DNA of 64,000 nt. Origin: Candidatus Zixiibacteriota bacterium (GTDB taxonomy: Bacteria; Zixibacteria; MSB-5A5; DG-27). The DNA lies in contig JAUWHO010000023.1 of the NCBI GenBank assembly GCA_030605835.1, forward strand, positions 265,834-329,833. Direction: 5' to 3'. The notes below the pieces were generated by a model that worked only from the letters and a program-made list of their open reading frames with translations, searched no databases and was not told the DNA's origin. A program made the position numbers and the translations under genes. This document shows positions 43,892 through 63,827 of the stretch, piece by piece. Within the stretch, counting starts at the first letter, position 1. The number at the start of each line of letters is the position of its first letter.

Positions 43892-43968
43892 CGTAGATGC
43901 CCGCAATAGCCCCCTATTACGATTAAAACAGGCTTAGATATATGTGAATGTGCTTGGGGGAGTGTGCT

Positions 43969-45498: not shown

Positions 45499-45526
45499 AT
45501 ATCGGCTGACAATCAAACAGATTTTA
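45499..45526 (-). promoter_or_regulatory. Sigma-28-type (FliA) promoter
   Basis: On the minus strand TAAA (45526-45523), a 16-base gap, then GCCGATAT (45506-45499), against TAAA-N15-GCCGATAA for E. coli FliA. It lies about 115 bases upstream of the response regulator gene start, at the head of the regulator-flgN-csrA-fliW run. Confidence 0.55.
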
Positions 45527-45925: not shown

Positions 45926-45965
45926 CTCTGGCTCCTTTGAACTCCCGGAGAACAGGCGGTACAAC

Positions 45966-48533: not shown

Positions 48534-48560
48534 TTATCGACACCTCAACAATCAACTTTA
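48534..48560 (-). promoter_or_regulatory. Sigma-28 (FliA) promoter upstream of fliA
   Basis: On the minus strand TAAAGTTG (48560-48553), 11-base spacer, GTCGATAA (48541-48534): 7/8 and 7/8 matches to TAAAGTTT-N11-GCCGATAA with consensus spacing. It also overlaps an imperfect inverted repeat AGGTGT...ACACCT (48519-48541). Confidence 0.7.
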
Positions 48561-49154
48561 GCTATTCTGTGAGATTCGCAGGAGGTGTTGTTGGCCTCAG
48601 AATCCGGAGGACGAAATGCTGTTCTGAGGCCGTTTTGGGGACTGTGGAGGATTCTATCGGGCTTCGCGGGAGGCTTCCCTGCCTCCCGCTTCAACCAGAG
48701 TGAGGAGGTCGAAATGCCCAGATAGTTGGGAGAAGTCCCGATTCTCCCTACAGCTCCTTGAGTCAGCCCCCCTTGCGGAGGCCCCCCTTTTGTCAAACAG
48801 AACTGTGAGAAGGAAAAACTCTGGTAATGCCCCCCTGAAAAAGACGTCCCAGTTTTAGGTCTCAAAAAATCCATCTCAAAGTCCGCTCAACTAATGCGCA
48901 AAGTCCATACCGTTACGGATCTTAATTTGGGACCCTTCATGTGCCTTCTCCCTGCAGGTCAACTACAACATCTAGCGCCAATCCGATGTGAGTTATTCCC
49001 GCCCCATAGAAAAGAGGTAATTTTTTCCGGTTCAGAGGGGAAATTCTTTCGGCCTGACAGCCTCGGTCCCAGCTAATGGCCATCTCGGAGCTCAAAAGAG
49101 GTTGCGATTTTCTCGGCGGGGTGTATTTTAGTCAGACCGAAGAGCAAGAAGCGT
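48561..49154. other. Intergenic region
   Basis: About 590 bases upstream of fliA and before the phosphoesterase. Holds a hairpin (GCGGGAGGC / GCCTCCCGC, 48666-48689) with no U tract and a CCCCCCTGAAAAAGAC motif (48827-48842) repeated near 53594. No gene supported. Confidence 0.45.
48666..48689. repeat. Hairpin palindrome
   Basis: GCGGGAGGC, loop TTCCCT, GCCTCCCGC; 9-base-pair perfect stem without U tract. Confidence 0.6.
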
Positions 49155-49883
49155 ATGAGAATCGCCTTTTTTTCCGACGTTCACTCCAACTTAGAGGCCC
49201 TGCAGGCGGTCTTGGACGACGCCAAGGAGCACAAAGTGGAGAAGTTCCATTTCCTGGGTGATGCTGTCGGTTACGGACCTGATCCCAATGAGTGTGTGAA
49301 AATCGTCTGTGACCTCTCCGAGATCTGCCTGTATGGAAATCACGATTACGCCGCCTTAGGGCTTATGGACATCTCCTATTTCAACCCTTACGCCGCCGAG
49401 GCCATCCGCTGGACGCAGAGCAATCTCTCCACCGAAAGCAAAGAGCTTTTCAAAGATTTCAAGATGACGGCGAAGGTGGACGACATCTTCCTGGTTCACG
49501 GTACCCCCGGCAACCCGGAGGAGTGGGACTACCTCCTCGACTTAGCCGATGCCGAATACAACTTCCCGGCGTTCGAGGAGAAGGTTTGCTTAGTGGGGCA
49601 CAGCCACGTCCCGGTAGTTTTCAAAAAGAAGGGTGAGGAAAGAGCTCTTTTAAGCCGGGAGGTGGAAGTCTTCTTGGAGGACGATTGGCGCTATATTATA
49701 AATATCGGGAGCGTTGGGCAACCGCGAGACAACGACCCCAGAGCCTCCTACCTGATTTACGACCAGCCCGAAAAGCACCTCTTCCTGAAAAGAGTGGAAT
49801 ACGATTTTACGGTCACCCAGAAAAAAATGGCAGAGCTCGGACTGCCGAAATATCTGTACGACCGATTAGCAGTCGGGCGCTGA
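49155..49883 (+). CDS. YfcE/MPE-type metallophosphoesterase
   Basis: 242 residues, calcineurin-like fold with metal motifs FFSDVHSNLEALQ (Asp/His), HFLGDAVGYGPDPNECV (Asp), LYGNHDYAAL (Asn/His), VHGTPGNPEEWD and CLVGHSHVPV (His/His). Matches the small UPF0025/YfcE group with broad phosphodiesterase activity. C-terminal strand region ends normally. Monocistronic on the plus strand, opposite to fliA. Confidence 0.92.
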   Translation: MRIAFFSDVHSNLEALQAVLDDAKEHKVEKFHFLGDAVGYGPDPNECVKIVCDLSEICLYGNHDYAALGLMDISYFNPYAAEAIRWTQSNLSTESKELFKDFKMTAKVDDIFLVHGTPGNPEEWDYLLDLADAEYNFPAFEEKVCLVGHSHVPVVFKKKGEERALLSREVEVFLEDDWRYIINIGSVGQPRDNDPRASYLIYDQPEKHLFLKRVEYDFTVTQKKMAELGLPKYLYDRLAVGR

Positions 49884-49892
49884 GATTCTCTA

Positions 49893-49923
49893 TCAAAAAG
49901 GGCGGTGATGAATTCACCGCCCT
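49893..49923 (-). terminator. Intrinsic terminator of the beta-helix gene
   Basis: Read on the minus strand: AGGGCGGTGA / TCACCGCCCT perfect stem (49899-49908 with 49914-49923, loop TGAAT) followed by TTTTTGATAG. Located about 60 bases after the stop of the minus-strand gene at 49985. Confidence 0.7.
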
Positions 49924-49984
49924 ACGTTGCGTAACAATCAAGTATCTGCTTAATCTGCTTGCCCGCCTGAGGCGGCTGTGAATC

Positions 49985-51847
49985 CTACTTCACCAGCATC
50001 ATCCTCCGGGTATTGGTGTAATCTCCTGCGGTGAGCTTGTAGAAGTAGAGACCGGAGGAGACCTCCGAGGCATCCCAGCTGACAGATCTATATCCAGCCT
50101 CCTGTGTTTCATCAACCAGAGTCGCCACTGTTCGACCGAGCAGGTTGTAAATCTCCAATCTAACGTGACTTGTGACTGGCAACTGATAGTTAATGGCTGC
50201 GGTAGCGTTGAAGGGGTTGGGATAGTTCTGGCTCAAGGCGTAGTGTGTTGGCAGGCCACTTCCTGTTGAGACGAAATCGTCATCGAACCAGCCCTTGAGG
50301 GTGCGCCAGTTGTCTATCTGGCTAGAGGCCTGAGCAGGTTCCTCTTTTGAGAAATAGAAACAGCTGGAGTCGATGATTGAGGAACCAAAGTCCCCGATGT
50401 AAGTCACGAAGGAGTAATCTCCACCAGGCGCAAAATCTGGAACGTGTTCGCTGAGATCAGCTCTCACAATGCTATCTCCTGGAGGGATGGTGATGTCGTT
50501 GTAGCGCCAGAGGCGGTGAGGTTGGCTCAGGCCGGGCACAAAGGCGCAAGCCCAGATATCGACAGTAAGCTCCCCACGGGAGAGATTGAGAACACCACCG
50601 TCATAGGTCAGGTCACCTCCTTGTGGGGGAATGACGATAGGCTCATCATGAGGATAAACCTCAACGATTCCCAGAACCGCCTGGTTGAAGTAGAAGGCGC
50701 CCATGTCGGAGCGGGTACCGTCGGGGTCGAGAGGCGAGTTAGGATCTCCGGCATCGATGCAGGGGGAGTGCCACCTGAGATGGAAATCTTCGTTGTATGG
50801 CCCCGCAAAAATCGGGTCGGCGTCGATACATCCTACCCCTTCCCAGCCGCCCTGGACATCACAGTAGGTGACGGTCGGATTTGGGTAGTCGAAGTAAATC
50901 TCCGGACCGAACGGTGCCGAATCTCCCCACAGCACGGTATTCGTGATCGTGACGGCGGAGCTGTTGCAGGCAATGCCCCCACCGTACCAAAGGGCAGTGT
51001 TGCCGCTGATGGTATTATTGCTCATGTTTACGGTAGAATACCAGATGTCAACGCCACCTCCGTACATGCCAGCCTCATTCCCGCTGATGGTGCAGTTTGT
51101 GATGGTTGCGCTGGAGTACTCGATTTCGATGCCGCCGCCAAGCATGTCGGTCGTATTTCCGACAACGGTGCAATGCTCGATGGTTGCGCTAGCTTCCAAG
51201 AGTGCTATCCCTCCGCCGGCATAGAAGCCACCAGTGTTCTCGGATACAGTGCAGTAACTGATCTTTGCGTTGGCGCCGTATCCGACGCCAACTCCGCCGC
51301 TGGCGCTGTCTGCCGAATTCTGGGTGATAAGACAGTGTTCGAGGATTGGACTGGAGTCCCAGCCAAGTGAGAGTCCGCCGTTCCAGTATTCAGCCCAGTT
51401 CCATCTAATGGTACAGTGGCTGATGGTCGGACTCGAATTCTCGCAATGGATCCCTCCACCGAACCAGTCGGGGTCAGGTCCTCTCGCCCGGCCATACTGG
51501 ATGATGCAGTAGGACAAGTGGCTGTTATCTTGCGCATTGCTGAACCGGATGCCGTGCCAACCCTCGGTGATGTCGGCAGCGGTGAAGAGAACCGAATCGC
51601 TTTCCGTACCGATTGCTTCCAGATACCCGTTCACGATAAGCTTGTAGTGCCCCTGAAAGATCACTTCCACCCCTTCGTGGATGTTCAGGGTAGAATCAAC
51701 GGGCACGTTGATCTCGCCGTTGACGTTGTAAGGATTCCCGGAGGAGTACCAGTCTCCTGATACTGGACCGGGACCGATTTCGGTCGCATTGGTAGTCAGC
51801 GGAAACACTAAGACCGCCACTGCCAGGATTGTGATCAAGTAACGCAT
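49985..51847 (-). CDS. Secreted right-handed beta-helix protein with C-terminal sorting domain
   Basis: 620 residues. Signal peptide (MRYLITILAVAVLVFPLTTNATE). Residues about 70-360 are parallel beta-helix repeats (CIIQYGRARGPDPDWFGGGI, CTIRWNWAEYWNGGLSLGWDS, CTVSENTGGFYAGGGI, CTVVGNTTDMLGGGIEI and similar) of the right-handed type found in polysaccharide lyases and adhesins. Then a PPQGG module (about 395-510, PIVIPPQGGDLTY) shared with the M1 peptidase, and a sorting domain from SQNYPNPFNATAAINYQL to MLVK. No catalytic residue can be named, so a binding or structural role is as likely as a lyase. Confidence 0.88.
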   Translation of the reverse strand: MRYLITILAVAVLVFPLTTNATEIGPGPVSGDWYSSGNPYNVNGEINVPVDSTLNIHEGVEVIFQGHYKLIVNGYLEAIGTESDSVLFTAADITEGWHGIRFSNAQDNSHLSYCIIQYGRARGPDPDWFGGGIHCENSSPTISHCTIRWNWAEYWNGGLSLGWDSSPILEHCLITQNSADSASGGVGVGYGANAKISYCTVSENTGGFYAGGGIALLEASATIEHCTVVGNTTDMLGGGIEIEYSSATITNCTISGNEAGMYGGGVDIWYSTVNMSNNTISGNTALWYGGGIACNSSAVTITNTVLWGDSAPFGPEIYFDYPNPTVTYCDVQGGWEGVGCIDADPIFAGPYNEDFHLRWHSPCIDAGDPNSPLDPDGTRSDMGAFYFNQAVLGIVEVYPHDEPIVIPPQGGDLTYDGGVLNLSRGELTVDIWACAFVPGLSQPHRLWRYNDITIPPGDSIVRADLSEHVPDFAPGGDYSFVTYIGDFGSSIIDSSCFYFSKEEPAQASSQIDNWRTLKGWFDDDFVSTGSGLPTHYALSQNYPNPFNATAAINYQLPVTSHVRLEIYNLLGRTVATLVDETQEAGYRSVSWDASEVSSGLYFYKLTAGDYTNTRRMMLVK

Positions 51848-51951
51848 GATTTTTCTCCTTCAAGGTTGAAGGTTCAAAGCGAAGATTAGTGGCCAGATTA
51901 AGGAACCATACTCTCCCTCCTTACACCCCTCTGATGACCTATGCAATCTTC

Positions 51952-52046
51952 TCACTTCACCAGCATCATCCTCCTGGTGTCGCTGAAGTCTCCGGCGGTC
52001 AGTGGAAATGACAGTACGACCGCTGTCAGGATTGCAGGTAGAGTTC
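51952..52046 (-). pseudogene. Collapsed sorting-domain gene (signal peptide fused to tail)
   Basis: In the frame ending at 51952 the sequence reads AILTAVVLSFPLTAGDF followed by SDTRRMMLVK and a stop: the hydrophobic core of a signal peptide like that of the 620-residue protein, joined directly to the last 15 residues of a sorting domain. An AGGAGG site followed by GTG (about 52048) survives but is out of frame. Nearly all of the gene has been deleted. Confidence 0.6.
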
Positions 52047-52288
52047 ACGTGGGAACCTCCTGAGAGTTAAAGGTCTTCTGTCAAGAAGCGGGCGAAGTCA
52101 GTATCGAATCTTTTCGAATTACCTTAGCAATATACAATTCCTGGCAAGGTCTGTCAAGAAAGAAATCGTCTCTCTCAGTGATGATGCCGTTTATTGGTCA
52201 GTGATGGCACCTGAAACAGAATGGAAAAGGGAGGGGTCAACGGATACAGATCTTCAAGCCCCTCCCTCCGGTTTGTGCGTGTGAAATC
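52047..52288. other. Spacer between decayed genes
   Basis: About 240 bases, AT-rich in part, with an imperfect stem GGGAGGG / CCCTCCC (52230-52266) downstream of the fragment at 52289. No gene. Confidence 0.4.
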
Positions 52289-52400
52289 CTACTTCACCAG
52301 CAACATCCTCTTGGTCTCGGTGGAGTCTTAGGCTGTCAGTTTGTGGAAAGAGAAACCTGAGGGCGCCCTCCAAGCATCCCAAATGACAGGTGTATATAGG
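52289..52400 (-). pseudogene. Decayed sorting-domain fragment with internal stop
   Basis: In one frame the minus strand reads VIWDAWRAPSGFSFHKLTA, a stop, then DSTETKRMLLVK and a final stop, matching the VSWDASEVSSGLYFYKLTAG...TRRMMLVK end of the sorting domains but with a TAA in the middle. The rest of the gene is absent. Confidence 0.6.
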
Positions 52401-52451
52401 GCCAGCTGCCTATGGCAGCTTTGAAGATGCTCTTGAACGGCCATGATACTA

Positions 52452-53252
52452 CTACTGCCTCAAGATTGCTCTGCCGCTGGCGGTTCCAATCGTAACGTGA
52501 GGGTCCTCGATTTCCTTAATAGCGGTTTTTCTGACGTATAAGTCATGATGGTTATCGAATTCCTCTTCGGCATCGAAGTCGAAGGGCGAGACGATACGTC
52601 CCTGCCGGGCTTTGGCGGTGAACTCAAAGTGACCTTTGATCGGATTTCCGCAATAATCGAGAATTGCCTTTCCGGAAGCGGTGCCCAGATGTAAATCATG
52701 CTCCGCGCTCTGTGCAAGCTTGACGTTCACTACCCCGGACGCTGAACCAAATGTACTATTCCCCTCAATCACAACGCCGGAGGCGTTGACATCTCCAGAA
52801 GCCGTGCTCATGTGAAACCGGCCCCTGCAATCCTCGATCCGAATATTGCCGGAGGTCGTCTTGGCTACAAACACCCCCTCCAGGCCGTAGATAGACAAGC
52901 CACCTGAAGCCGATTCGAATTCCACCCGGGTGCCTTCCGGTACGCTCAACGCCCACATGGAGTTTCCGTTAGTTGAACCATTTGTCCTCTCGTCCAGCTT
53001 GAGCGTGTTGCCACTAACACGAAACTTCGGTTCAAAGGCATCGCGAGGCGAGTGGTTGTTGAGCACCATAACCTCTATTCCGTCGTCTACTGCTTTCCTG
53101 ACGATGCAATCGCCGCTGATTGTGTTGACCTTAATGACATCTTTTTTCCCGAATTTCTTGGTGATCGCGTAGTCTGGCCCTGGAGAGGCATTCACGGTAA
53201 GGACCATGACCGCAACGATAGCCAGCAAAACCATCTTTCCAAAGATTTTCAT
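52452..53252 (-). CDS. Exported DUF4097-family beta-strand protein
   Basis: 266 residues. Signal peptide (MKIFGKMVLLAIVAVMVLTVNA). The DUF4097 architecture is seen as repeated short strands around SG motifs: INTISGDCIVRK-like VNTISGDCIVRKA, ESASGGLSIYGLEG, KTTSGNIRIEDCRGRF, STASGDVNASGV, GSASGVVNVKL and GTASGKAILDY, GTASGRAILR. This forms a repetitive beta-sheet thought to act as an adhesin or envelope-stress element. AGGAGG precedes the ATG. A small reading frame immediately upstream is possibly coupled to it. Confidence 0.85.
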   Translation of the reverse strand: MKIFGKMVLLAIVAVMVLTVNASPGPDYAITKKFGKKDVIKVNTISGDCIVRKAVDDGIEVMVLNNHSPRDAFEPKFRVSGNTLKLDERTNGSTNGNSMWALSVPEGTRVEFESASGGLSIYGLEGVFVAKTTSGNIRIEDCRGRFHMSTASGDVNASGVVIEGNSTFGSASGVVNVKLAQSAEHDLHLGTASGKAILDYCGNPIKGHFEFTAKARQGRIVSPFDFDAEEEFDNHHDLYVRKTAIKEIEDPHVTIGTASGRAILRQ

Positions 53253-53263
53253 GACGACCTCCT

Positions 53264-53377
53264 CAAAAGTTTTTCAGGTCAAACTCTACCAGCCCGAAGA
53301 GCCGCAGCAATCCGAGCCGTTTCCTCATCCTGGTGTAGCCATCATCTAATACGGAATGCGGTGAATGAGGTTTCACG
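53264..53377 (-). CDS. Possible small leader ORF upstream of DUF4097 gene
   Basis: A 37-codon frame starting at GTG with a strong GGAGGAGGAT site, reading MKPHSPHSVLDDGYTRMRKR and continuing LGLLRLFGLVEFDLKNF before a stop at 53264. It ends next to the Shine-Dalgarno of the DUF4097 gene, so translational coupling is possible. No homolog recognised; it could be a chance frame. Confidence 0.4.
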
Positions 53378-53521
53378 ATATCCTCCTCCGTAGCCGACGG
53401 TACCATCAATAAAGGACATAGGTGCTCGGTTGACCCTGGGTGATGCCATATACCCTCACTGCGGACCTCTCAGAATAGCCCTCTTTTGATTACTTGAAAA
53501 CCAGATCGAAGCCCCCGGGAG

Positions 53522-53554
53522 ACAAAAAGAGGGAGGGGATTTTCCCCTCCCTCT
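53522..53554 (-). terminator. Intrinsic terminator
   Basis: AGAGGGAGGGGA (53528-53539), loop TTT, TCCCCTCCCTCT (53543-53554); on the minus strand the stem is followed by TTTTTGTC. 12-base-pair stem. It may terminate the RRM transcript's read-through. Confidence 0.65.
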
Positions 53555-53692
53555 GGTCTAAATCACTTTACTCCGGGGCAGGAATAGCCCCCCGATGAAA
53601 AAGACTTCCCACTTTATCCTGAGTGGGAAATCTCAAAGGCATTTATCAACATCCTGAATTGCACTATGCCGACCGGCATCCATGCAAGATAT

Positions 53693-53720
53693 AAAAAGGG
53701 ATTGGCTCATCACCAATCCC
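53693..53720 (-). terminator. Intrinsic terminator of the RRM gene
   Basis: On the minus strand GGGATTGG / CCAATCCC stem followed by TTTTTATATC, about 50 bases after the RRM stop. Confidence 0.7.
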
Positions 53721-53769
53721 CTCTTCGTTTCTAAGGTAAACCCGTTTACTGGCAGAAGACGAAAACCCT

Positions 53770-54063
53770 CTACCAGGAGCGGCGTCCGCCACCCCAACCG
53801 CCTCCACCGCCACGATCATCGCTGCGGGGACGCGCCTCATTTACCTTCAGCGTGCGACCGTCCAGTTCCGTTCCATTCAGGCTGGAAATTGCCGCTTGCG
53901 CTTCCGCTTTAGTGAACATTTCCACGAAGCCGAATCCTCTCGATTCTCCCGTGTACTTGTCCTTGACAATGTTCACGCTTGAAACCTCGCCATGGCTTGC
54001 AAATGCCTGGCGAAGAGCTTCTTCTGTCGTGCTGGACGACAGATTTCCGACGTAGAGCTTCAT
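53770..54063 (-). CDS. RNA-recognition-motif protein
   Basis: 97 residues. RNP2 (LYVGNL, residues 3-8) and RNP1 (RGFGFVEM, about 43-50) define a single RRM, with a glycine/arginine tail (GGGGGWGGGRRSW) after residue 83. Such proteins act as RNA chaperones and are often cold-regulated. AGGAGAG precedes the ATG. Transcribed alone, ended by the hairpin at 53693. Confidence 0.95.
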   Translation of the reverse strand: MKLYVGNLSSSTTEEALRQAFASHGEVSSVNIVKDKYTGESRGFGFVEMFTKAEAQAAISSLNGTELDGRTLKVNEARPRSDDRGGGGGWGGGRRSW

Positions 54064-54345
54064 CTCACTCTCCTGTTTGGCTTATCTCGGATGCAGATTA
54101 ACAAAAATATTAGCAACCCGAGATAAACAGATGGTTGCGCACCATTGCGCTCAAGTTTCCGTATTAAAATTTTCAAAGGGGTGGATTACAAATACAAACC
54201 TTAAAAAAATTAACAGGGGAAACCCACGATTTTATCCAAATATATCGGCATAGTTTCTAAATGCAACATTTATTTTGAGATATTTCCCACTTTGAGCAAA
54301 GTAGGAAATTATAAACTGGTACTGTAGTTGATAGAAAGGCTAACC

Positions 54346-54558
54346 TCACTTCACCAGCATCATTCTCCTGGTCTCGGTGAAATCCCCAGCCGTCAGCTTG
54401 TAGAAATAGAGACCGGATGAAACCTCCGAAGCATCCCAGACAACAGACCTGTATCCTGCCTGCTGTTTGCTGTCTACTAACGTGGCCACCTTCTGTCCTA
54501 GGGTATTGTGAACCTCCAGCTTGATGTGACCAGCAGCCGCCAGCTGGTAAGCGGCATT
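54346..54558 (-). pseudogene. Orphan C-terminal sorting domain (5' truncated gene)
   Basis: The frame ending at 54346 encodes NAAYQLAAAGHIKLEVHNTL, VATLVDSKQQAGYRSVVWDA, SEVSSGLYFYKLTAGDF and TETRRMMLVK, closely matching the end of the beta-helix protein's sorting domain and still in frame. The YPNPFN anchor and everything before it are lost, with an in-frame stop shortly upstream. Lies just after the stop of the minus-strand glycosyltransferase. Confidence 0.75.
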
Positions 54559-54604
54559 AGAGTAATAGGTATCTATTCGCTACTCACCACTCACCAATAA
54601 CCAC

Positions 54605-55840
54605 TCACTCCAACCTGCTGCGAAGCGAGGAGAAAATCAGAAGCAGCCCGTTGGCAGCATAGATCCATATATAGGGCTCGACCGGGAAGCGGAATCTGGT
54701 GGAGCCGAACGCCGCCAAAGGAACGGCGAGGGCAAAATAGGCGATTGTCAGAATCAAGAGTATAGAGCCGAAGTTGACCTGAAGACGAAATAGCCCAAGC
54801 AGGAACAAAAAGAGCATCACCAGTCCCACGCCGGAGGTGACAAATAGACGCCCGATTCGAGGGAGGCTGACAAATCCCTGCAGGTCATACCCCCTCCAGA
54901 ATTCCCACAGCTCCTGCGCCTGCCAGAGCAGAAACGAAAAGGGTCTTTTCTTGATAACGCGGAGAGCTCCCTGCAAGTAGATTTTGTCGACCTCCTCACG
55001 GGAGTATCCCGCGTCCATCAGTCTGTTGCTGGCCTCCCAAACGTTGCCGCGCCTCTCGATTACACTGTCAACCTCCACGGAGGCGGGCAAATCCAGGGTG
55101 ACAGAGGTGTGGTGAGCAACCTTCAAGGTCAGATTGCGTCCCAGAAGGGGGGTGAAGCCGACATTGCCGGTTTTCGCATAGTTATACCAGAACCACGGCA
55201 GGATCACCAAAGCCACGCCGAGGATTGAAAGCAAGAAAAATCGCAGAACTCTCTTGAACGACCGGTATTTCATCCACAACGGCACCAGGATCACGAAGGG
55301 TAGAAGCTGTTCCGGGGGCCTGCAAAGTATGTGATAACCCAGAAGTAACCCTGAGGCAAAAAAGTAAAAGGGCTGGTCTTTCTCCATAGCCAGCAATAAG
55401 AGCAGCACAAGTGCGCTCAAAGTGAGTATGGAAATAGGTTCGGAAAGGATGAAATTGGGGAAGATCAGCATATATGGGTTGAGCAGAAAGATGCTGGCGC
55501 CAATGACTGCCGGCAACTCTGCGACCACCTTTCTCCCGACCAGAAAGACAAAAATGCCCGCCAGCACCACCATGACTTGCTGCAAAAGAGCAACGGCGAA
55601 GTTGTTCTCGCCCGCAAGCGTATATACACCAGCTAAGAAGAGAGGGTAACCGGGGGTGCGCAGAACGTCCCTTTTCTCCAGCCCCGTGAAATAGTCCTCC
55701 CCGCTGGCGATGTTGATCGCCGGTATGGTATAGTCTTCGGTGTCCTGGCTTACGACGGGACCAAGCATCACCAGGCCGGCGACTCTGATAACCAGGCTTA
55801 TGACTGCAAGGATGAGAAATAGTCTTAAGTGTTGAGACAC
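54605..55840 (-). CDS. PMT/ArnT-like membrane glycosyltransferase (GT39 type)
   Basis: About 411 residues with nine or more membrane spans (for example LFLILAVISLVIRVAGLVML, VALLQQVMVVLAGIFVFLV, LTLSALVLLLLLAM). Typical of polyprenyl-phosphate-sugar glycosyltransferases: an acidic loop after the first span (PVVSQDTEDYTIPAINIASGED) and the RTPGYPLFLAG segment. The start is set at GTG 55840 because a near-consensus promoter (55886-55914) overlaps the first nine codons of the longer frame (55906); the longer start would put the promoter inside the gene. Substrate unknown. Confidence 0.75.
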   Translation of the reverse strand: MSQHLRLFLILAVISLVIRVAGLVMLGPVVSQDTEDYTIPAINIASGEDYFTGLEKRDVLRTPGYPLFLAGVYTLAGENNFAVALLQQVMVVLAGIFVFLVGRKVVAELPAVIGASIFLLNPYMLIFPNFILSEPISILTLSALVLLLLLAMEKDQPFYFFASGLLLGYHILCRPPEQLLPFVILVPLWMKYRSFKRVLRFFLLSILGVALVILPWFWYNYAKTGNVGFTPLLGRNLTLKVAHHTSVTLDLPASVEVDSVIERRGNVWEASNRLMDAGYSREEVDKIYLQGALRVIKKRPFSFLLWQAQELWEFWRGYDLQGFVSLPRIGRLFVTSGVGLVMLFLFLLGLFRLQVNFGSILLILTIAYFALAVPLAAFGSTRFRFPVEPYIWIYAANGLLLIFSSLRSRLE

Positions 55841-55885
55841 GGGGTTACGCTTGTCTTGTGAACACTTCAGCGATTTGCATCGGTC

Positions 55886-55914
55886 AGTATATTTGCTCAC
55901 TTGCATGATGTCAA
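55886..55914 (-). promoter_or_regulatory. Strong sigma-70 promoter that decides the start of the membrane glycosyltransferase
   Basis: Minus strand TTGACA (55914-55909), 17-base spacer, TATACT (55891-55886). It lies over the first codons of the longest frame, so the likely start is the downstream GTG at 55840. Confidence 0.65.
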
Positions 55915-56001
55915 GGAGATTTGCGGAAGGACATCATTAGCAGATTTTCAATCGCAATCTGGAAGCTTTAGCAGCTAACTTGTGAAATAAATCACGAGCG
56001 C

Positions 56002-56030
56002 TTGCTTTTTTCAACTCTTTGTGGTATCAT
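56002..56030 (+). promoter_or_regulatory. Sigma-70-like promoter of archaemetzincin gene
   Basis: TTGCTT (56002-56007), 17-base spacer, TATCAT (56025-56030); start near 56037, 26 bases before the ATG. Confidence 0.45.
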
Positions 56031-56062
56031 CTTCAACAAGAACCAGAGAGGACTGACAGTTA

Positions 56063-56620
56063 ATGGCTTTGACCAGCTCGATCGATATTCTGCCGCTGGG
56101 TTTCACAGACGAGGCTTTTCTCTCCAAGCTTTCGGAACGTCTGGGGACGATCTTGGGTCAACCCGTTAATGTCCTGCAATCTAAGACAGAACCCAGCCAC
56201 GCCTTTGATTCCCGCCGGAAACAGTATTCCTCAACCGATATCTTAAAAGAGATCTCGAGCAAACGGGCCCCTGGTTCCCGCAAGATCATCGGGGTAACTG
56301 ATGTGGATCTCTATGTTTCCAGCTTAAACTTCGTCTTCGGGCAGGCTCATCTCCGGGGACAGGCGGCGGTCATCTCGCTTGCTCGCCTGAGGCCCTCTTT
56401 TTACAGAGAAGACGAAGACAGCAAACTTCTCTTTTCCCGAACTGTTAAGGAAGCGGTTCACGAGCTGGGGCACACTTACGGCCTGACCCATTGCTCTGAC
56501 CGGGGATGTGTCATGTCCTTCTCCAACAGCATCAGAGATGTGGATTTGAAGAGGGAAAGCTTCTGCGAGTCTTGCAAGCGTCGCTATGGCGAGATACTCA
56601 GAAGACAAAGTTGTCCATAG
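56063..56620 (+). CDS. Archaemetzincin-type zinc metalloprotease
   Basis: 185 residues. The extended zinc motif HELGHTYGLTHC runs from H133 (Glu134, H137, third His H143) to C144, followed by CVM (C149, M151, the Met-turn) and FCESCKRR. This cysteine-rich variant of the metzincin site is the archaemetzincin signature. Cytoplasmic; no signal peptide. Peptidase activity is documented for a few family members, the substrate is unknown. Its 3' end overlaps an out-of-frame longer version of the next gene. Confidence 0.92.
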   Translation: MALTSSIDILPLGFTDEAFLSKLSERLGTILGQPVNVLQSKTEPSHAFDSRRKQYSSTDILKEISSKRAPGSRKIIGVTDVDLYVSSLNFVFGQAHLRGQAAVISLARLRPSFYREDEDSKLLFSRTVKEAVHELGHTYGLTHCSDRGCVMSFSNSIRDVDLKRESFCESCKRRYGEILRRQSCP

Positions 56621-56750
56621 CTCGGATGTAGCTCGCCACCCCCTGCCAGCGCTGACGGGGCTTCCCCATAAAACTATTGCCATCTGTAAAGGCTTTAATA
56701 TATTTGGTAACCTTGAACATCATGGTTTTTCTTGGTCCCTGGAGAGATTG

Positions 56751-57599
56751 ATGAGCATATTAACGTTTCTCGCCCGCAGGTTCATCGCCGGGGAGAAGAT
56801 AGAGGATGCCGTCAGAGTCATAAAAAACCTGAACCGAAATGGGATGACTGCCACCCTCGACATCCTCGGAGAGAACGTCAAAAGCGAACAAGAAGCCACC
56901 CGTAAAGCCGACAACTACATCCAGGCTCTGGAGACAATCGATAGAGAGAAGTTGAGCAGCCATGCCTCCCTCAAGCTCACTCAGATGGGGATGGACGTCT
57001 CCGATGGTTTCTGTTATGACAACGTCAGTCGCATCCTCGAGAGGGCTTCATCGCTGAAGAACTTCGTGCGGGTGGATATGGAGGGCTCCAATTATACCGG
57101 CAGGACCCTGGATTTGGTTTACCGGTGGCATGAAAGGTTTCCCAACATGGGAACGGTGATACAGTCGATGCTTTTCCGCAGCTTAGAGGACATAAAGGAG
57201 CTTAATCGCCGGAAAATCAGGGTGCGGCTCTGTAAGGGCGCATATAAGGAGCCGAAAGAGATCGCTTATCGGGACCGGAGGGATATAAATGAGAATTTCG
57301 TCACTCTGATGCAGCTTCTCCTCACGGAGGGCGACTATCCCGCCATCGCTACCCACGATGAGAAGCTGATTGAAGCCACCAAGGAGTTCGCCCAACAGGA
57401 GGGAATCGGCAAGGACCAGTTCGAGTTTCAGATGCTTTATGGAATTAGAAGGGGCCTGCAGCTGAGGCTCGCCCGGGAGGGGTATAATGTCCGGGTTTAC
57501 GTTCCCTACGGGACTCACTGGCTGCCCTATTATCTGAGGAGATTAAGAGAGAAGAGGGAGAACCTTCTCTTCTTCATTAGCAACTTTTTCAAGGACTGA
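56751..57599 (+). CDS. Proline dehydrogenase (FAD-dependent)
   Basis: About 282 residues from ATG 56751 (GGAGAG 4-5 bases upstream); a longer frame starts at 56586 inside the archaemetzincin gene, but its N-terminus is not protein-like. PRODH motifs: FIAGEKIEDAVRVIKNLN, TLDILGEN, LKLTQMG, VRVDMEGSNYT, VIQSMLFRSLEDI, VRLCKGAYKEP and the C-terminal MLYGIRRGLQLRLAREGYNVRVYVPYG. Catalyses proline to pyrroline-5-carboxylate. A partial copy of its 3' end occurs at 61777. Confidence 0.9.
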   Translation: MSILTFLARRFIAGEKIEDAVRVIKNLNRNGMTATLDILGENVKSEQEATRKADNYIQALETIDREKLSSHASLKLTQMGMDVSDGFCYDNVSRILERASSLKNFVRVDMEGSNYTGRTLDLVYRWHERFPNMGTVIQSMLFRSLEDIKELNRRKIRVRLCKGAYKEPKEIAYRDRRDINENFVTLMQLLLTEGDYPAIATHDEKLIEATKEFAQQEGIGKDQFEFQMLYGIRRGLQLRLAREGYNVRVYVPYGTHWLPYYLRRLREKRENLLFFISNFFKD

Positions 57600-57666
57600 T
57601 TTCCGAAACAAGTGTGAAATAGTGGACTTGGAAAAGATGGCTGAAGCAGACATTCATAGGTGAAAA

Positions 57667-58503
57667 ATGACCACGTGGTTAAGGATTCTCTTAATAGCAG
57701 GCCCTTTGCCTCTTGGAATATATTTGTCGACAGTAGAGGCAATACCAGCTGAAGGCAAGATAGTAGCTTGGATTGTCTGTGGGCTTATCTGCATATCTGG
57801 TGTGATTCTGACCCTGAAAGAAGAGGCAGACAAACGGAAGCAATCCAAGGAGACTACATACGGTCTATACTTGGCGCAGCGAGGGGAGTTGCGTGATAGC
57901 GGTCTTCCGACAGCGTACGTAAATGGTCTCGGAGAAAACCCCTTGCTAGAACATTCCTTCAATGAGGGCCGAAAGCATGAGAATGAGTCTAGATTCAAGG
58001 AAGCTATCAAGGAATATCAAAAATGCCTAGACCACCCAAAAGCAACGTGTGAAAACAGAGTCGCTGCAAATATCCTTATAGGTAACTGCTATTACTCGCT
58101 ATCCAGGTTGAAAGAGGCCGAGAAACACTATAGGGAAGGGTGGAGGCTATCTAAGCGAGTAAAGGACAAGAAGGAGAAGTTACAAGGGAGATCAGCGGCT
58201 GTTGGCAACATCGGTCTCATATACAGTGACCTGGGCAAGCCCGATGAAGCATTGAACTATCTCAAAGAGGCCTTAGAGATCCACAGAAAGATCGGCTATG
58301 AACAGGGAATAGCAAATCAACTTGGCAACATCGGTCTGATATACCATGACGTGGGCAAGCCCGATGAAGCATTGAACTATCTCAAAGAGGCCTTAGAGAT
58401 ATTCAAGCGGATACGCGCCCAGCCACAAATAGAAATGACGGTAAGGAACATCCGTACTGTCGAGGAAAAGAGCAAAAGGAGGGCGCAAGAGTCTAGCCAG
58501 TAG
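57667..58503 (+). CDS. Membrane-anchored TPR protein
   Basis: 278 residues. Two N-terminal hydrophobic segments (ILLIAGPLPLGIYLS; KIVAWIVCGLICISGVILTL), then a charged linker and four or more TPR motifs: EGRKHENESRFKEAIKEYQKCL, ANILIGNCYYSLSRLKEAEKHYREG, and two nearly identical 40-residue units NIGLIYSDLGKPDEALNYLK and NIGLIYHDVGKPDEALNYLK. TPR proteins mediate protein-protein contacts. The DNA of the last two units is a 120-base direct repeat. Partner unknown. Confidence 0.85.
   Translation: MTTWLRILLIAGPLPLGIYLSTVEAIPAEGKIVAWIVCGLICISGVILTLKEEADKRKQSKETTYGLYLAQRGELRDSGLPTAYVNGLGENPLLEHSFNEGRKHENESRFKEAIKEYQKCLDHPKATCENRVAANILIGNCYYSLSRLKEAEKHYREGWRLSKRVKDKKEKLQGRSAAVGNIGLIYSDLGKPDEALNYLKEALEIHRKIGYEQGIANQLGNIGLIYHDVGKPDEALNYLKEALEIFKRIRAQPQIEMTVRNIRTVEEKSKRRAQESSQ
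58202..58401 (+). repeat. 120-base tandem duplication inside the TPR gene
   Basis: 58202-58281 and 58322-58401 are almost identical over 80 bases at an offset of 120 bases (40 codons), a recent duplication of one TPR unit. Confidence 0.85.
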
Positions 58504-58680
58504 AAAGATCAAACGGCTCCGAGCCGGCCCCGGGAATGCCTTGCACAGGTTTATCCGCGCGGGGTCTCTCGGGCGCAGATTTCACCAAGTGTGAAGACGG
58601 CAAATGGGCTTATCGCCACCGATTTTGTGCCGATTAAATGGAGATGACACTTGGGTTAGCGTAAATTCCACGAGGGTGAT

Positions 58681-60768
58681 ATGAAGACCACGACTTTGGG
58701 ATTCCCAAACGTATATAAGTCCTTAATCAAGAAGGCGGTCGAGGGGTTCTGGAGAGGCAGGAGCACTTTAGACGATATCATCAGGGCTGAACAGGAGGTG
58801 CAGGCTTTCAATGCTCGGGCCCAAGTTAGCTTAGACCTCCAGCCGGTCTTCGATATAGACGTTTACGACAGGCTGCTGAGAACGGCGGTGATGTTTGGCA
58901 TCGTCCCCAAACGTTTTGGCACCCCCCTGGAGGCAAATCAGGATCTGGAGGTGTATCTGTGCATAGCTCGAGGTACCGCTCAAGCCCCCGCCTCTCCGAT
59001 GGTGAAATGGTTCAATACCAATTATCATGTGGTTCAGCCCGAGTTTGAGCAAGACCCTCTCCTCGTCGCCGACACAAGGTTACCAGACTTTACTGGTGCC
59101 AACAAGAAACTGGCCTTAATAGGCCCCTGGACGCTTCTATGCTATGCTATAGACAAGACTGGACAGGGAAAAGAAAAGCTCTTTGGAAAACTGACAGAAC
59201 AATATGTCACTTTCATTAATAGCCTCCCCGATATTGTCGTCCAGCTTGAGGAGCCCTCGTTCCTAACAGATGGCATTCCCGAAGATTATGGAGATTTCAC
59301 AGGAGAGCTGAAACGAGACATACATCTGCATGTCTATTTCGGCCCCGTGAATGAGTTTGCGGAGGGATTGTTTGCCCTGCCGGTAGAGGCAATTGGATTG
59401 GATTTCGTCGACGGCGCCTCCAATTTAGAGTTATTGGCACAATTCCCCGAAGATAAGGTATTGATTGCGGGAGTAATCAATGGAAGGAATGTCTGGCCAG
59501 CTTCTATAAGAACAAAGAGAACCTTAGAGGCCATCCTTGAGAAGATACCTGAGGAGAGACTGTATATTTCTCCCTCCTGTTCCTTGATGCACGTTCCTCT
59601 GACAGCGGAAGGTGAAGAGGGAGATTTCTCATTTGCAGTGGAGAAACTCCAGGAGCTGGAAGCCATAAGCAACAGAACCCTCAGCTACAGGGAGATTCAG
59701 GCTGAGGAGGTCACGCTGCCCGGGGAGAGATATGGTCGTTCAAGAAAGAGCTTCTGGATTAGCGATATTCCCTATCCGACAACCACCATCGGCAGTTTTC
59801 CCCAGACCCCGGAGCTGAGGAAAGCAAGAAGGGCCTGGAAAGAGGGAAAGACTTCTGATGCCGAATATGAGCAATTTGTGAAGGGATACATCCGGGATTG
59901 CGTCGAACGACAGGAAGAACTCGGATTGGACGTATTAGTTCACGGAGAGCCCGAAAGGGCGGACATGGTTCAGTTCTTCGCCGAGCACTTTGAAGGCTTC
60001 GCCGCCATCAGAGGGGCGGTGCAATCCTATGGAACCAGGCATGTCCGACCTCCGGTCATAACCGGGCCGATAAGACGGCCGGCGGCGATCACGGCTAAAT
60101 GGATTCAATATGCCCAATCATTGACTGCCAAGCCGGTCAAGGGGATACTGACCGGTCCGGTGACTATGGTGCAGTGGTCCTATCCCAGAGAAGACATATC
60201 GAGAGAAGCCCAATTCTATGAGGTTGCCGCAGCCTTGGCGGAAGAGGTCGACGATTTGGTGAGGGCAGGAATCAGACATATACAGATAGATGAACCCGCC
60301 CTCAGGGAAGCACTGCCCCTGGAACGTTCAAGGAGAGCTCTTTATCTGAAGCATGCCGTAAACGCCTTCAGATTGGTCTATGCCCGCGTTCCCGACGAGA
60401 TCGTGGTGCACTCGCATATGTGCTTCTCCGATTTCCCAGATATAATGTCGGCGATAAGGGAGATGGGAGTGGACGTTTTGAGCATAGAGGACAGCAAGGC
60501 CAAGGGAAAGACCGCAGCCAGCATAAGGGAGGGTGGATTCCCGGGGTCAATCGGTCTGGGGGTTTTCGACGTACATAGTCCCAGAATTCCCACCGTAGAG
60601 GAAATGATTGTCATCCCCTCTTCTCTGAACATGGATCCCAGAAGGATCTGGATTAATCCCGACTGCGGACTGAAGACCAGAACGAAGGAGGAAGCCTACA
60701 CCCAGCTTTACAGGATGGTGGAAGCTGTGAAGATCCTCCGGGAGAGACAGCCGCTTACCCCTAAATAG
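58681..60768 (+). CDS. metE: Cobalamin-independent methionine synthase
   Basis: 695 residues. The C-terminal zinc site is complete: H579 and C581 in VVHSHMCFSDF, E603 in SIEDSKAKG, and C662 in NPDCGLKTR, with the same 22-residue spacing between the second and third ligands as in E. coli. Substrate motifs TTIGSFPQT and VHGEPERADM are present. The N-terminal half is shorter than E. coli MetE (about 750 residues). Transfers a methyl group from methyltetrahydrofolate to homocysteine. Cotranscribed with metF. Confidence 0.95.
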   Translation: MKTTTLGFPNVYKSLIKKAVEGFWRGRSTLDDIIRAEQEVQAFNARAQVSLDLQPVFDIDVYDRLLRTAVMFGIVPKRFGTPLEANQDLEVYLCIARGTAQAPASPMVKWFNTNYHVVQPEFEQDPLLVADTRLPDFTGANKKLALIGPWTLLCYAIDKTGQGKEKLFGKLTEQYVTFINSLPDIVVQLEEPSFLTDGIPEDYGDFTGELKRDIHLHVYFGPVNEFAEGLFALPVEAIGLDFVDGASNLELLAQFPEDKVLIAGVINGRNVWPASIRTKRTLEAILEKIPEERLYISPSCSLMHVPLTAEGEEGDFSFAVEKLQELEAISNRTLSYREIQAEEVTLPGERYGRSRKSFWISDIPYPTTTIGSFPQTPELRKARRAWKEGKTSDAEYEQFVKGYIRDCVERQEELGLDVLVHGEPERADMVQFFAEHFEGFAAIRGAVQSYGTRHVRPPVITGPIRRPAAITAKWIQYAQSLTAKPVKGILTGPVTMVQWSYPREDISREAQFYEVAAALAEEVDDLVRAGIRHIQIDEPALREALPLERSRRALYLKHAVNAFRLVYARVPDEIVVHSHMCFSDFPDIMSAIREMGVDVLSIEDSKAKGKTAASIREGGFPGSIGLGVFDVHSPRIPTVEEMIVIPSSLNMDPRRIWINPDCGLKTRTKEEAYTQLYRMVEAVKILRERQPLTPK

Positions 60769-60778
60769 AAGCCCCGAT

Positions 60779-61756
60779 ATGCACTTAACCGAGTATCTGA
60801 AGCACAGAGGCGGGAAGACGCTAATCTCCATAGAGATTGTCCCGCCCCAAAAGGGGAAAAGCATAGATCAAATATTCAGAGCCGTGGAAGATTTAATACA
60901 GTTTGATCCCGCTTTCGTCAGCGTCACCTCTCATGCTCACGAGAGAGTCATCCAAAGGGTGGATGGTAAGAAGGTCCTGAGGGTCAAGAGAAAAAGACTG
61001 GACACCAACGCTATCTGTCTGGAACTGGCCGCCAGATACGGCATCGAACCGATACCCCACATAATCTGTGCTGGTTTTACCAGAGACGAGACCGAAGACG
61101 CCCTTTACACCCTGAATTTTCATGAGATAGACAACCTCTTGGCCTTGAGGGGGGACCCTCCCAATAATCAAAAATACAAACCCAGAAGTCACGGGCATGG
61201 ATATGCTTCTGATTTGGTTCAGCAGATAGCTGATCTGAATAAAGGCATTTATCTCGATCCTATAGACAACCCCCTTAAGACCAATTTCTGCATCGGGGTT
61301 GCCGGATATCCAGAAAAGCATCCAGAAGCTTCTGATTTCAAGACCGACCTAAGACATCTGAAGAAGAAGGTTGACGAGGGCGCTGACTACATTTTAACCC
61401 AGATGTTTTTTGATAACAGCATTTATTACAGATTTCTCGAAAAGGCTAAACGGATTGGCATCACGGCTCCAATTATCCCAGGCGTAAAACCGATATACTC
61501 GCTGAAACAGTTAACTTCTGTGCCCAACACCTTTCGGGTCAGCATTCCTGAGGAATTCAAGGAGGAGATGTTGAGATATGAAACTAGAGAGGATGTGAGG
61601 AAACTTGGCATTGAACATACCGTAAGACAATGCGAAGATCTGATTAGAAACGGTGTTCCCTGCATACACTTCTACACCATGAGCCGGGCTGACCCCACAA
61701 CAGAAATCTTGAAGCAGACCTTTGGGGCTAGGGCCGGGAGAAGGATTAGGTTCTGA
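60779..61756 (+). CDS. metF: Methylenetetrahydrofolate reductase
   Basis: 325 residues. TIM-barrel FAD enzyme with the N-terminal SIEIVPPQKGKS, FVSVTSHAHERV, PIPHIICAGFTRDE, NLLALRGDPPN, GVAGYPEKHPEA and ADYILTQMFFD motifs, and the C-terminal IPCIHFYTM-like VPCIHFYTMSRA segment. Generates the methyltetrahydrofolate used by MetE. Eleven bases after metE, so one operon. A remnant of the proline dehydrogenase 3' end follows directly. Confidence 0.95.
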   Translation: MHLTEYLKHRGGKTLISIEIVPPQKGKSIDQIFRAVEDLIQFDPAFVSVTSHAHERVIQRVDGKKVLRVKRKRLDTNAICLELAARYGIEPIPHIICAGFTRDETEDALYTLNFHEIDNLLALRGDPPNNQKYKPRSHGHGYASDLVQQIADLNKGIYLDPIDNPLKTNFCIGVAGYPEKHPEASDFKTDLRHLKKKVDEGADYILTQMFFDNSIYYRFLEKAKRIGITAPIIPGVKPIYSLKQLTSVPNTFRVSIPEEFKEEMLRYETREDVRKLGIEHTVRQCEDLIRNGVPCIHFYTMSRADPTTEILKQTFGARAGRRIRF

Positions 61757-61776
61757 CAGGTCAAGTCAAGGAAAAA

Positions 61777-61828
61777 AAGAGAACTCACTCTTCTTCACCA
61801 GCAACTTTTTCAAAGATTGATTTCCAAA
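61777..61828 (+). repeat. Partial duplicate of the proline dehydrogenase gene end
   Basis: In the PRODH frame this reads KENSLFFTSNFFKD plus stop, matching RENLLFFISNFFKD plus stop of the gene ending at 57599, and continues with the same TGATTTCC flank. Confidence 0.6.
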
Positions 61829-61844
61829 CTGACTACGATAGTTA

Positions 61845-61873
61845 TTGGCTCCTATCGAGCATTTATATATAAT
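61845..61873 (+). promoter_or_regulatory. Sigma-70 promoter of methyltransferase gene
   Basis: TTGGCT (61845-61850), 17-base spacer, TATAAT (61868-61873); perfect -10 box. Confidence 0.55.
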
Positions 61874-61993
61874 TTAGCGAATCGGCAATAGGGATGTGTA
61901 TCCGAATCTGGTTCGGATATGCTGCATGTAAATGAGTTATGGGAAATACTATATTTGTTTGAGAAAAGGAATGATAGGGGCCAACCCGGCAAT

Positions 61994-62641
61994 ATGAAAA
62001 AACTTCTGAAGCGAATTACCCCGGGGCCAATCTGGCAGTTAATGAAAACAGTCTATCACGAATTGAAGAAACTCCAGTATCTCACTGTAGGACGCCCTTT
62101 TAGGCCAGGCGAAACAACAGCCGCCAAACGCCGTCGAATAGAAGAGGGCTTCTTTGACAAGTATTGTCAGGGTAAAGGATTAGACATCGGATATGGCGGC
62201 GATCTTTTAGCACCAAATTGTAAAGGATGGGATAGGGAGCACGGTGATGCGCAGTATCTGCACGGTATGGAAGATGCAAGATTTGACTTTGTCTATTCTT
62301 CACATACACTTGAGCATATGGTTAATCCCGGTATTGCCCTCAGGAATTGGTGGCGGGTTTTGAAACCCGGGGGATATTTAATTTTATACATACCTCATCG
62401 GGATTTATATGAGAAGAAGGAAACTTTACCATCCCGTTGGAATAACGATCACAAACACTTCTTTTTAACAGACACAGATGAAGAGCCGGACACCATCGGC
62501 ATCATTCCACTAATTCAACGAACGCTTGCTAATCAGAAAGTAATTTATGCAAAGGAATGCAATGCGGGTCATACAATTACAGACCCTGAAATACACAGCG
62601 ACGGAGAGTATTCTATAGAGGTAGTTATAAGAAAGGAATGA
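61994..62641 (+). CDS. SAM-dependent methyltransferase (type 11)
   Basis: About 215 residues from the ATG at 61994; a longer in-frame start at 61919 is possible and I cannot decide. Rossmann SAM motif KGLDIGYGGDLLAPNCKGWD, then the DGHGDAQ-like EHGDAQYLHGM, FDFVYSSHTLEHM, and LKPGGYLILYIPH. The local DNA is richer in A and T than the metEF block, suggesting different ancestry. Substrate unknown; such proteins modify sugars or small metabolites. Confidence 0.85.
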   Translation: MKKLLKRITPGPIWQLMKTVYHELKKLQYLTVGRPFRPGETTAAKRRRIEEGFFDKYCQGKGLDIGYGGDLLAPNCKGWDREHGDAQYLHGMEDARFDFVYSSHTLEHMVNPGIALRNWWRVLKPGGYLILYIPHRDLYEKKETLPSRWNNDHKHFFLTDTDEEPDTIGIIPLIQRTLANQKVIYAKECNAGHTITDPEIHSDGEYSIEVVIRKE

Positions 62642-62755
62642 AACCATAGCTTCCCCAACAGCGTGTTTCTGGCTTGATTTCCTCACCCAGATGCCTCTGG
62701 GACTTCATAAGGAGGCGGAGCTTCTATGAAATCCTACCTAAAAGGGGAGAATAAA

Positions 62756-63133
62756 ATGAGAGCAAAGACCCTAATTCTCCTTGTAATTGCCTTCGCTCTA
62801 TTTCAGGGGTGTGAAAAACCCACACTTGTAGTCCCTCAAACGGAAGATTTAAGCGGCTATTGGGACGTTCATCACATCAGATATGACGGTGCTCTGGTGA
62901 GAACTACAAACATTTTCATTAGCCAGTCCGGTGATAGTGTACGGTTTCTGGAGGCGGCGGACACCATATCCACCGGGGTTATCGTTGCTGATACCATAAG
63001 ATGCAGTGATATGTATTACCTCGGCATATCAAGGATATTCATCGATGACAACTCTCATATGCACTCGGAGCCGCCTCTGGCTGAATATTACAAACGTCTT
63101 GACTTCGTCAGACACGGACATGAGAAAGCCTAG
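62756..63133 (+). CDS. Small lipoprotein
   Basis: About 125 residues from the ATG at 62756 (GGGGAG upstream). Lipobox LFQGC places the acylated Cys at residue 18, after a hydrophobic stretch (LILLVIAFALFQGC). The mature part begins EKPTLVVPQTEDLSGYWDVH and looks beta-rich (DSVRFLEAADTISTGVIVADTI). Function unknown; the SGYWDV start resembles lipocalin-like small domains. Confidence 0.75.
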   Translation: MRAKTLILLVIAFALFQGCEKPTLVVPQTEDLSGYWDVHHIRYDGALVRTTNIFISQSGDSVRFLEAADTISTGVIVADTIRCSDMYYLGISRIFIDDNSHMHSEPPLAEYYKRLDFVRHGHEKA

Positions 63134-63214
63134 CTTCTGTCGTTGACAAAGCGTCCACCGACCTCTGCGCACTCCCCCACATTCCGATTGCAGGTGGACA
63201 ATCCATCAAAGCCA

Positions 63215-63242
63215 TAAAGCTTTTTCCATTCTCTGCCGATTA
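63215..63242 (+). promoter_or_regulatory. Sigma-28-type (FliA) promoter
   Basis: TAAA (63215-63218), 16-base gap, GCCGATTA (63235-63242): one mismatch in the -10. Precedes the FlgN-like gene at 63268. Confidence 0.5.
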
Positions 63243-63267
63243 TCTACAGGTAAGGAGACCCTATGAT

Positions 63268-63663
63268 ATGGGCAGGAAGTTCCAGAAGAAGTTGATAGAG
63301 AGGCTGACGGAGATGGTCGATTGTTCCGACGCCATGAACCGCATCCTAAAGGAGCAACAGACCGCCTTGACAATAGACGACTCCGATAGCCTCCTTCAAG
63401 CCATCAATGATATGGACGAGTGTCGCTGCCAACTCCTGGACCTGGATAAGGCCCTCTCCGACCTGAAGGCTTCAACCGAATTCTCCCAACAGGCGACAGA
63501 AATGCCAGAAGTGGAGGGACTCCTCGCGAGGGTCAACTCACTTCAGGAGGAAAATACAAATCTGATGCTTTCGAATCGGGAACTAATCAATACCAAGATA
63601 CGAGTTGCTCCCGAAGAGATAAGGGAACCCCTCTCCGACATGGGCGGATCAGCTCTGAGCTGA
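63268..63663 (+). CDS. Coiled-coil protein, FlgN-like
   Basis: 131 residues with AAGGAGA nine bases before the ATG. Almost entirely helical (KKLIERLTEMVDCSDAMNRILKEQ, LLDLDKALSDLKASTEFSQQA) with a hairpin organisation like FlgN and related flagellar export chaperones, though no clear family motif. The sigma-28 promoter in front supports a flagellar role. Could also be an unrelated small coiled-coil protein. Confidence 0.5.
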   Translation: MGRKFQKKLIERLTEMVDCSDAMNRILKEQQTALTIDDSDSLLQAINDMDECRCQLLDLDKALSDLKASTEFSQQATEMPEVEGLLARVNSLQEENTNLMLSNRELINTKIRVAPEEIREPLSDMGGSALS

Positions 63664-63736
63664 CACCAGAGGCATCAAGCTTTTCTCCAACAGCCAAACC
63701 TCACCCTCTCAACCTACAGATTTCCCCCAGGGGCGC

Positions 63737-63764
63737 TAAAGTTTCTCACCATAATTGTCGATAA
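63737..63764 (+). promoter_or_regulatory. Sigma-28-type (FliA) promoter
   Basis: TAAAGTTT (63737-63744), 12-base gap, GTCGATAA (63757-63764): the -35 is a perfect match to the E. coli FliA consensus, one mismatch in the -10. Directs transcription toward the right edge. Confidence 0.6.
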
Positions 63765-63791
63765 ACTTGATGGTCAGTTTTTGAACAGCGT

Positions 63792-63827
63792 CGCCGGAGT
63801 TCTGCCTCTGGCGGGAGGTTTTTGTTT
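63792..63827 (+). promoter_or_regulatory. Possible mutually exclusive hairpins in the leader
   Basis: CGCCGGAG / CTCTGGCG (63792-63799 with 63806-63813) competes with CCTC / GAGG (63805-63808 with 63815-63818) followed by TTTTTGTTT. It contains a GGA motif of the kind CsrA binds. Speculative. Confidence 0.3.

Follow-up and report, generated by a model that had tools for sequence, protein, structure and literature searches.

FliA and its regulatory island retained without a flagellum in Zixibacteria, with a sigma-28-type promoter ahead of an MSHA-like pilus operon

In a bacterium without any detectable flagellum from the uncultured phylum Zixibacteria, the sigma factor FliA (sigma-28) and its island of PilZ, GAF, response-regulator, FlgN, CsrA and FliW genes have probably outlived the flagellum and now drive a pilus, a reading for which we estimate a probability of about 0.77 and which suggests that an old swimming switch may have been rewired to control a surface appendage. 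The study is based on sequences only, all taken from MAGs. The window, meaning the whole stretch of DNA analysed (64 kb), covers C51:265834-329833 of the genome G000, a 2.68-Mb Zixibacteria MAG in 53 contigs that is 96.4% complete.

FliA island and absence of the flagellum

Judged by its sequence FliA is a true member of the sigma-28 family, with 261.6 bits to TIGR02479 (cut-off 189.6) and PF04542, PF04539 and PF04545 all above cut-off (Table 1), and its identity is 65–70% to FliA of other Zixibacteria and 95% between G000 and the same-genus genome G006. The adjacency of the PilZ gene to fliA is kept across the phylum. For flgN the listed start at 44819 is a mechanical ORF start, and comparison with G006 points to a GTG at ~44786, just 3' of the flgN promoter, as the likely start. 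A profile search for FlgM gave no match in G000, using a model that is insensitive in this phylum (17 of 133 genomes found), and the RsiG motif E(X)3S(X)2R(X)3Q(X)3D was not found in the window and the stretches of its own genome that were examined. Near the island, positions 40142-42872 encode a histidine kinase and an NtrC-like sigma-54 activator; since relatives of the pair (up to 59% identity) are found beside fliA in G100 (family f12) and G110 (f14), they may share the control system of FliA.

Table 1. Genes, putative promoters and a terminator-like element of the window (positions are those of the window).
Feature	Position	Strand	Basis and remarks
fliA, sigma-28 (FliA/WhiG family)	47718..48473	-	TIGR02479 E 6e-78; sigma-70 regions 2, 3, 4
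PilZ-domain protein (YcgR-like), candidate c-di-GMP receptor	46820..47578	-	PF07238 E 1e-10, PF12945 weak
GAF-domain protein of fliA island	45966..46823	-	PF13185/PF01590; synteny
response regulator RR1	45572..45964	-	PF00072; synteny
response regulator RR2	44954..45391	-	PF00072 E 7e-31
flgN	44301..44819	-	PF05130 50.4 bits (cut-off 30.5)
csrA	43969..44214	-	NF002469 101 bits (cut-off 73)
fliW	43409..43906	-	PF02623 E 5e-36
FlgN-like coiled-coil protein	63268..63663	+	PF05130 27.1 bits, under the 30.5 cut-off
putative sigma-28 promoter of fliA	48534..48560	-	TAAAGTTG-N11-GTCGATAA; pattern scan; autoregulatory; identical in G006
putative sigma-28 promoter of RR2-flgN-csrA-fliW	45499..45526	-	TAAAATCT-N12-GCCGATAT; pattern scan
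putative sigma-28 promoter of flgN	44806..44832	-	TAAAGGTT-N11-GTCGATTA; pattern scan; conserved in G006
putative sigma-28 promoter of FlgN-like gene	63215..63242	+	TAAAGCTT-N12-GCCGATTA; pattern scan
sigma-28 promoter-like site	63737..63764	+	TAAAGTTT-N12-GTCGATAA; no gene close downstream
terminator-like hairpin (63791-63814) and T run	63791..63822	+	fold z -1.6; weak

Profile searches for flagellin (PF00669) and FlhA (PF00771), both positive in control genomes, gave no match in G000. When the phylum was searched, FliA-family matches appeared in 133 of 133 genomes (124 above cut-off) and an FlhA match in only 106. FlhA is missing from every genome examined of the families f1, f3, f4, f13 and f14, where FliA is intact, and the only trace of flagellin in genomes of these families is one marginal match in G104 (E 6e-4). 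In flagellated relatives the gene order is flhA-flhF-flhG followed by fliA, while in the window and in f13 and f14 flhA-flhF-flhG is gone from the fliA locus, and most of the island (fliA and the genes for PilZ, GAF, response regulator, FlgN, CsrA and FliW) has been retained. Three f12 genomes (G101, G102 and G103) showed a weaker-scoring FlhA match and no detectable flagellin, perhaps representing intermediate flagellar loss or a divergent filament.

Sigma-28-type promoters

The FliA (sigma-28) consensus of E. coli and Salmonella, including the spacing, is TAAAGTTT-N11-GCCGATAA. Consensus and spacing are alike here, but there is no flagellum and many spacers are of 12 bases; in addition fliA appears to control itself through its own promoter, and no sign of FlhDC-type control was seen. 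A sequence-only reading of the window had picked out four sigma-28-type sites, ahead of fliA, RR2-flgN-csrA-fliW and the FlgN-like gene and at 63737, and each was located where claimed and with the matches claimed for it; a fifth match in the window, the flgN site, was absent from its list. The weaker fifth site that it placed upstream of the PilZ gene could not be upheld, the best candidate there having only 11 of 16 matches. Nor do all sites face flagellar genes: the 63737 site is without one, a terminator-like hairpin lies ~30 bases downstream, and the first gene 3' of it, encoding an M16 peptidase, starts ~0.5 kb off (L016:1615). The count of terminator-like sites (3 compared with 1.1 expected) points weakly to this hairpin ending a predicted ~50-nt RNA from 63737 and/or the mRNA of the FlgN-like gene; the RNA predicted at 63770-63830 could be a 3'-UTR-type small RNA, or there could be no product at all.

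A genome-wide scan with the pattern TAAA-N15/16-GYCGATWW, proposed in the same reading as a local consensus, revealed 15 matches in G000, compared with 6 for the same half-sites at a wrong spacing (N20/21), 3 in an order-3 Markov simulation and 1 for the pattern read backwards, showing that the motif occurs above random level. Five of the 15 lie inside the window, where ~0.14 would be expected from the rate of the wrong-spacing control. Judging from the control counts ~3–6 of the 15 matches (perhaps 20–40%) are due to chance. Allowing up to 2 mismatches to the E. coli-type consensus gave 11 sites compared with ~1 in simulation; allowing up to 3 mismatches to the full consensus gave no excess over the reversed control (20 vs 22 and 30 vs 30), and such a search is therefore useless for listing the regulon. 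In G009 (17 vs 14) and G110 (12 vs 13), both with FliA present, no excess of the pattern was found.

The matches of the C30 pair, C42, C49, C51:187929, C51:237148 and C17:4874 are probably mostly chance, the true regulon then consisting of a core set of fliA, RR2-flgN-csrA-fliW, the second flgN and the pilus operon, perhaps together with a polysaccharide-export gene (C41) and a HEAT-repeat gene beside the pilus operon (C14:17153). The yield of the wrong-spacing control and the position of several matches inside reading frames speak for this, and we see no strong counterpoint; it sets a limit on the best explanation and is not a substitute for it.

Comparison with G006 showed conservation of four sites (those of fliA, the response regulator, flgN and the pilin) alongside drift in most spacers; for the RR2 and flgN sites the spacer is changed and the boxes are mostly unchanged, the RR2-flgN-csrA-fliW promoter reading TAAAACCT-N12-GCCGATAT in G006 with a diverged spacer. 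Across the phylum, 24 of the 59 relatives have a correctly spaced site on the right strand within the 350 bp before fliA, compared with 0–6 at wrong spacings and none on the other strand; in f13 and f14 fliA has no clear sigma-28 site ahead of it. The last codons of flhG contain the fliA promoter in flagellated relatives, and among 31 of these genomes the A-D-I codons at the 3' end of flhG are GCC (31/31), GAT (31/31) and ATA (30/31), against a background of 41%, 59% and 16%, respectively, in the fliA genes of the same genomes. This fixation argues that GCCGATA, the sigma-28 -10 box, is under selection at the DNA level, and the possibility that the conserved -10 reflects mere coding conservation of flhG was rejected on the same ground. 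TAAAG-like/GCCGATTA-like sites, looked for as a positive control, are present ~180–265 bp upstream of most long flagellin genes in flagellated relatives; proteins of 260–300 aa with a Flagellin_N domain were dropped as controls, being probably FlgL and mostly lacking sigma-28 sites.

Because the promoter embedded in flhG is fixed and the flagellin promoters are of the same type, the proposed local consensus, also enriched over controls, is well supported, and the autoregulation of fliA suggested by the site at its own promoter is likely.

The pilus operon and its promoter

The only zero-mismatch consensus site of the genome (TAAAGTTT-N11-GCCGATAA) is located outside the window, on C35, with the prepilin gene pilin1 beginning ~225 nt after it. 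This gene is cut by the contig end, but within pilin1 the end of C35 and the start of C14 share an exact overlap of 141 nt, which joins the promoter to the operon in G000. The operon consists of ten genes for an MSHA-like type IV pilus: two prepilins, both with PF07963 (N-terminal methylation/cleavage signal) above cut-off, PilM/N/O/P-like proteins assigned by order and size with no Pfam match, a secretin that clearly meets PF00263 and has its best NCBIfam match to TIGR02519 MshL (219 bits, below the cut-off of 250), an ExeA/MshM-like ATPase, a TPR protein, a T2SSF/PilC-type protein and a pilus assembly ATPase (PF00437, E 4e-125) with a c-di-GMP-binding MshEN domain (PF05157, E 5e-19). With its best site at a pilus operon, and with neither flagellin nor FlhA in the genome or in f1, f3, f4, f13 and f14, the flagellar regulon of the sequence-only reading is not supported.

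Orthologous secretins (at least 58% identity) were found only in f1, f12, f13, f14 and one f16 genome; the pilus is absent from f3 and f4, and G110 (f14) is without an orthologous secretin. In every genome where the region is readable a site is present upstream of the first pilin, scoring 16/16 in G000 and G006, 15/16 in G104, G106 and G108 and, weakly, 13/16 in G109 (f14). Scores of 15–16 are thus seen in five genomes of two FlhA-less families with drifting spacers, and among 6102 background strand windows of 400 bp only one reaches 15. G000/G006 and G104/G106/G108 are related sets, so the five sites do not represent five independent events, but the spacers of one set differ from those of the other.

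A candidate CsrA site over the pilin start, GTGCAAGGATGA, is present in the own genus but is not kept in f13/f14 and is not claimed. An Rfam search of the leaders found no family. Just 3' of the sigma-28 site, the f13 leader of the pilus operon holds a conserved two-helix element, GGGAGUGU...GGGGACGGCCGCGG...CCCGCGGAAAGCACUUCCC, without Rfam match (L160 12000-12130(-), L161 10850-10920(-) and L163 13120-13210(-); three sequences, with no compensatory changes), which is perhaps a new regulatory RNA.

Proposed mechanism and alternatives

FliA would transcribe from promoters of the TAAAGTTT-N11/12-GCCGATAA type, its putative targets being its own gene, RR2-flgN-csrA-fliW, the FlgN-like gene at 63268 and the MSHA-like pilus operon; it is expected to occupy these promoters, and pilus synthesis would then depend on it. 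The FliA regulatory island would have stayed in the lineage when the flagellum was lost, and the ancestral late-flagellar switch, visible in the flagellin promoters of flagellated relatives, would have been redirected to a surface pilus. A PilZ protein is encoded next to FliA and the pilus ATPase has an MshEN domain, so c-di-GMP may link the two. In the FliA tree (moderate support) f1 is not united with f13/f14 and the flagellum-less families do not form one clade, so horizontal transfer or repeated origin of the link to the pilus may be involved.

The FlgN, CsrA and FliW homologues of the island would also be at home in an ordinary flagellar FliA regulon whose structural genes happen to lie on contigs missing from the MAG, which is after all in 53 pieces. 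At this level of completeness, however, both FlhA and flagellin would have to be missed, although they lie on separate contigs in most relatives; the double absence is common to f1, f3, f4, f13 and f14, including the single-contig genomes G009 (99%) and G107, and flhA-flhF-flhG is missing at the fliA locus itself, making this explanation very improbable. Slightly better placed, but still improbable, is a decaying relic, with FliA and its promoters surviving through inertia and the pilin site a coincidence. That FliW, CsrA and FlgN are without their usual partners in G000 and that the 63737 site has no close gene would be in line with decay, yet five flagellum-less families have an intact FliA, which is nearly identical in G000 and G006; boxes have been preserved around spacers that diverged, and no site in the genome is better than the pilin site, which recurs in two families.

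Redirection of FliA to the pilus, the preferred reading, could be taken further if the whole late-flagellar cassette (FliA, CsrA-FliW and the FlgN chaperones) had been transferred from flagellin to the pilus. We consider this unlikely; were it true, FliW/CsrA would receive feedback from the export or assembly of a pilus subunit, as they do from flagellin in Bacillus.

Comparison with known systems

The closest parallel is WhiG of Rubrobacter radiotolerans, a sigma factor of the flagellar clade that transcribes type IV pilus genes from promoters of the same consensus, their start sites having been mapped (PMC8325347). In both cases, and in no flagellar setting, a flagellar-clade sigma factor is associated with -35 TAAA/-10 GCCGATAA boxes before genes of a type IV pilus, and the promoters were predicted by a similar scan, which start-site mapping confirmed in Rubrobacter. 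Rubrobacter belongs to the Actinobacteria and its WhiG is RsiG-regulated, while here the stretches covered contain no RsiG motif; in addition the pilus here is MSHA-like and FliA is placed in a PilZ/GAF/RR/FlgN/CsrA/FliW island inherited from the flagellar locus. Legionella oakridgensis, according to the accessible part of a review (PMC5655016), has kept a functional FliA and FlgM while losing the entire flagellar regulon. FliA is thus retained without a flagellum in both, but FlgM is kept there and none was detected here (with the insensitive model), and that part of the review reports no link between FliA and a pilus in L. oakridgensis. The FliW-CsrA pair is shared with Geobacter sulfurreducens, where it acts on biofilm formation (PMC13407953), and with Bacillus subtilis (PMC6529632), as far as the accessible parts of these papers go, the difference being that no flagellin is present here.

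With the pilus-directing WhiG of Rubrobacter and the FliA of L. oakridgensis neither half is unprecedented. A literature search on Zixibacteria and flagella found no paper treating FliA kept without a flagellum, and the novelty lies in finding the two together in a candidate phylum of Gram-negative bacteria, where flagellated relatives represent the ancestral state and the whole regulatory island is retained. One phylum thereby offers an evolutionary series: members with a flagellum have FliA promoters at flagellin and within flhG, and flagellum-less ones keep FliA and have the promoter at a pilus operon. It illustrates how a switch for motility can survive the loss of its machine and pass to an organelle of attachment or twitching. 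Counting Rubrobacter WhiG, type IV pili would have been coupled to flagellar-type sigma factors twice, probably independently. It follows that fliA, flgN, fliW and csrA alone are poor ground for calling a bacterium flagellated.

Further sites in the genome

A sigma-28-like site with 14 of 16 matches (L005:1501-1527) precedes a Wza-like polysaccharide export gene (start 1967; PF02563, SLBB) by ~440 bp. Two similar sites (TATAATTT/TATAATCT ... GCCGATAA) are found ~1.9 kb apart at G000:C43:17894 and 19809 (L117 and L132), the former ahead of a FadL/TodX-like outer-membrane gene that belongs to a tandem pair. A second type IV pilus/type II-like operon (L167, G000:C17, 2180-12999), with an ATPase, PilC, several prepilins, a PilM-like protein and a secretin, all named from sequence, contains two sites with a perfect GCCGATAA -10 box and a weak -35 box.
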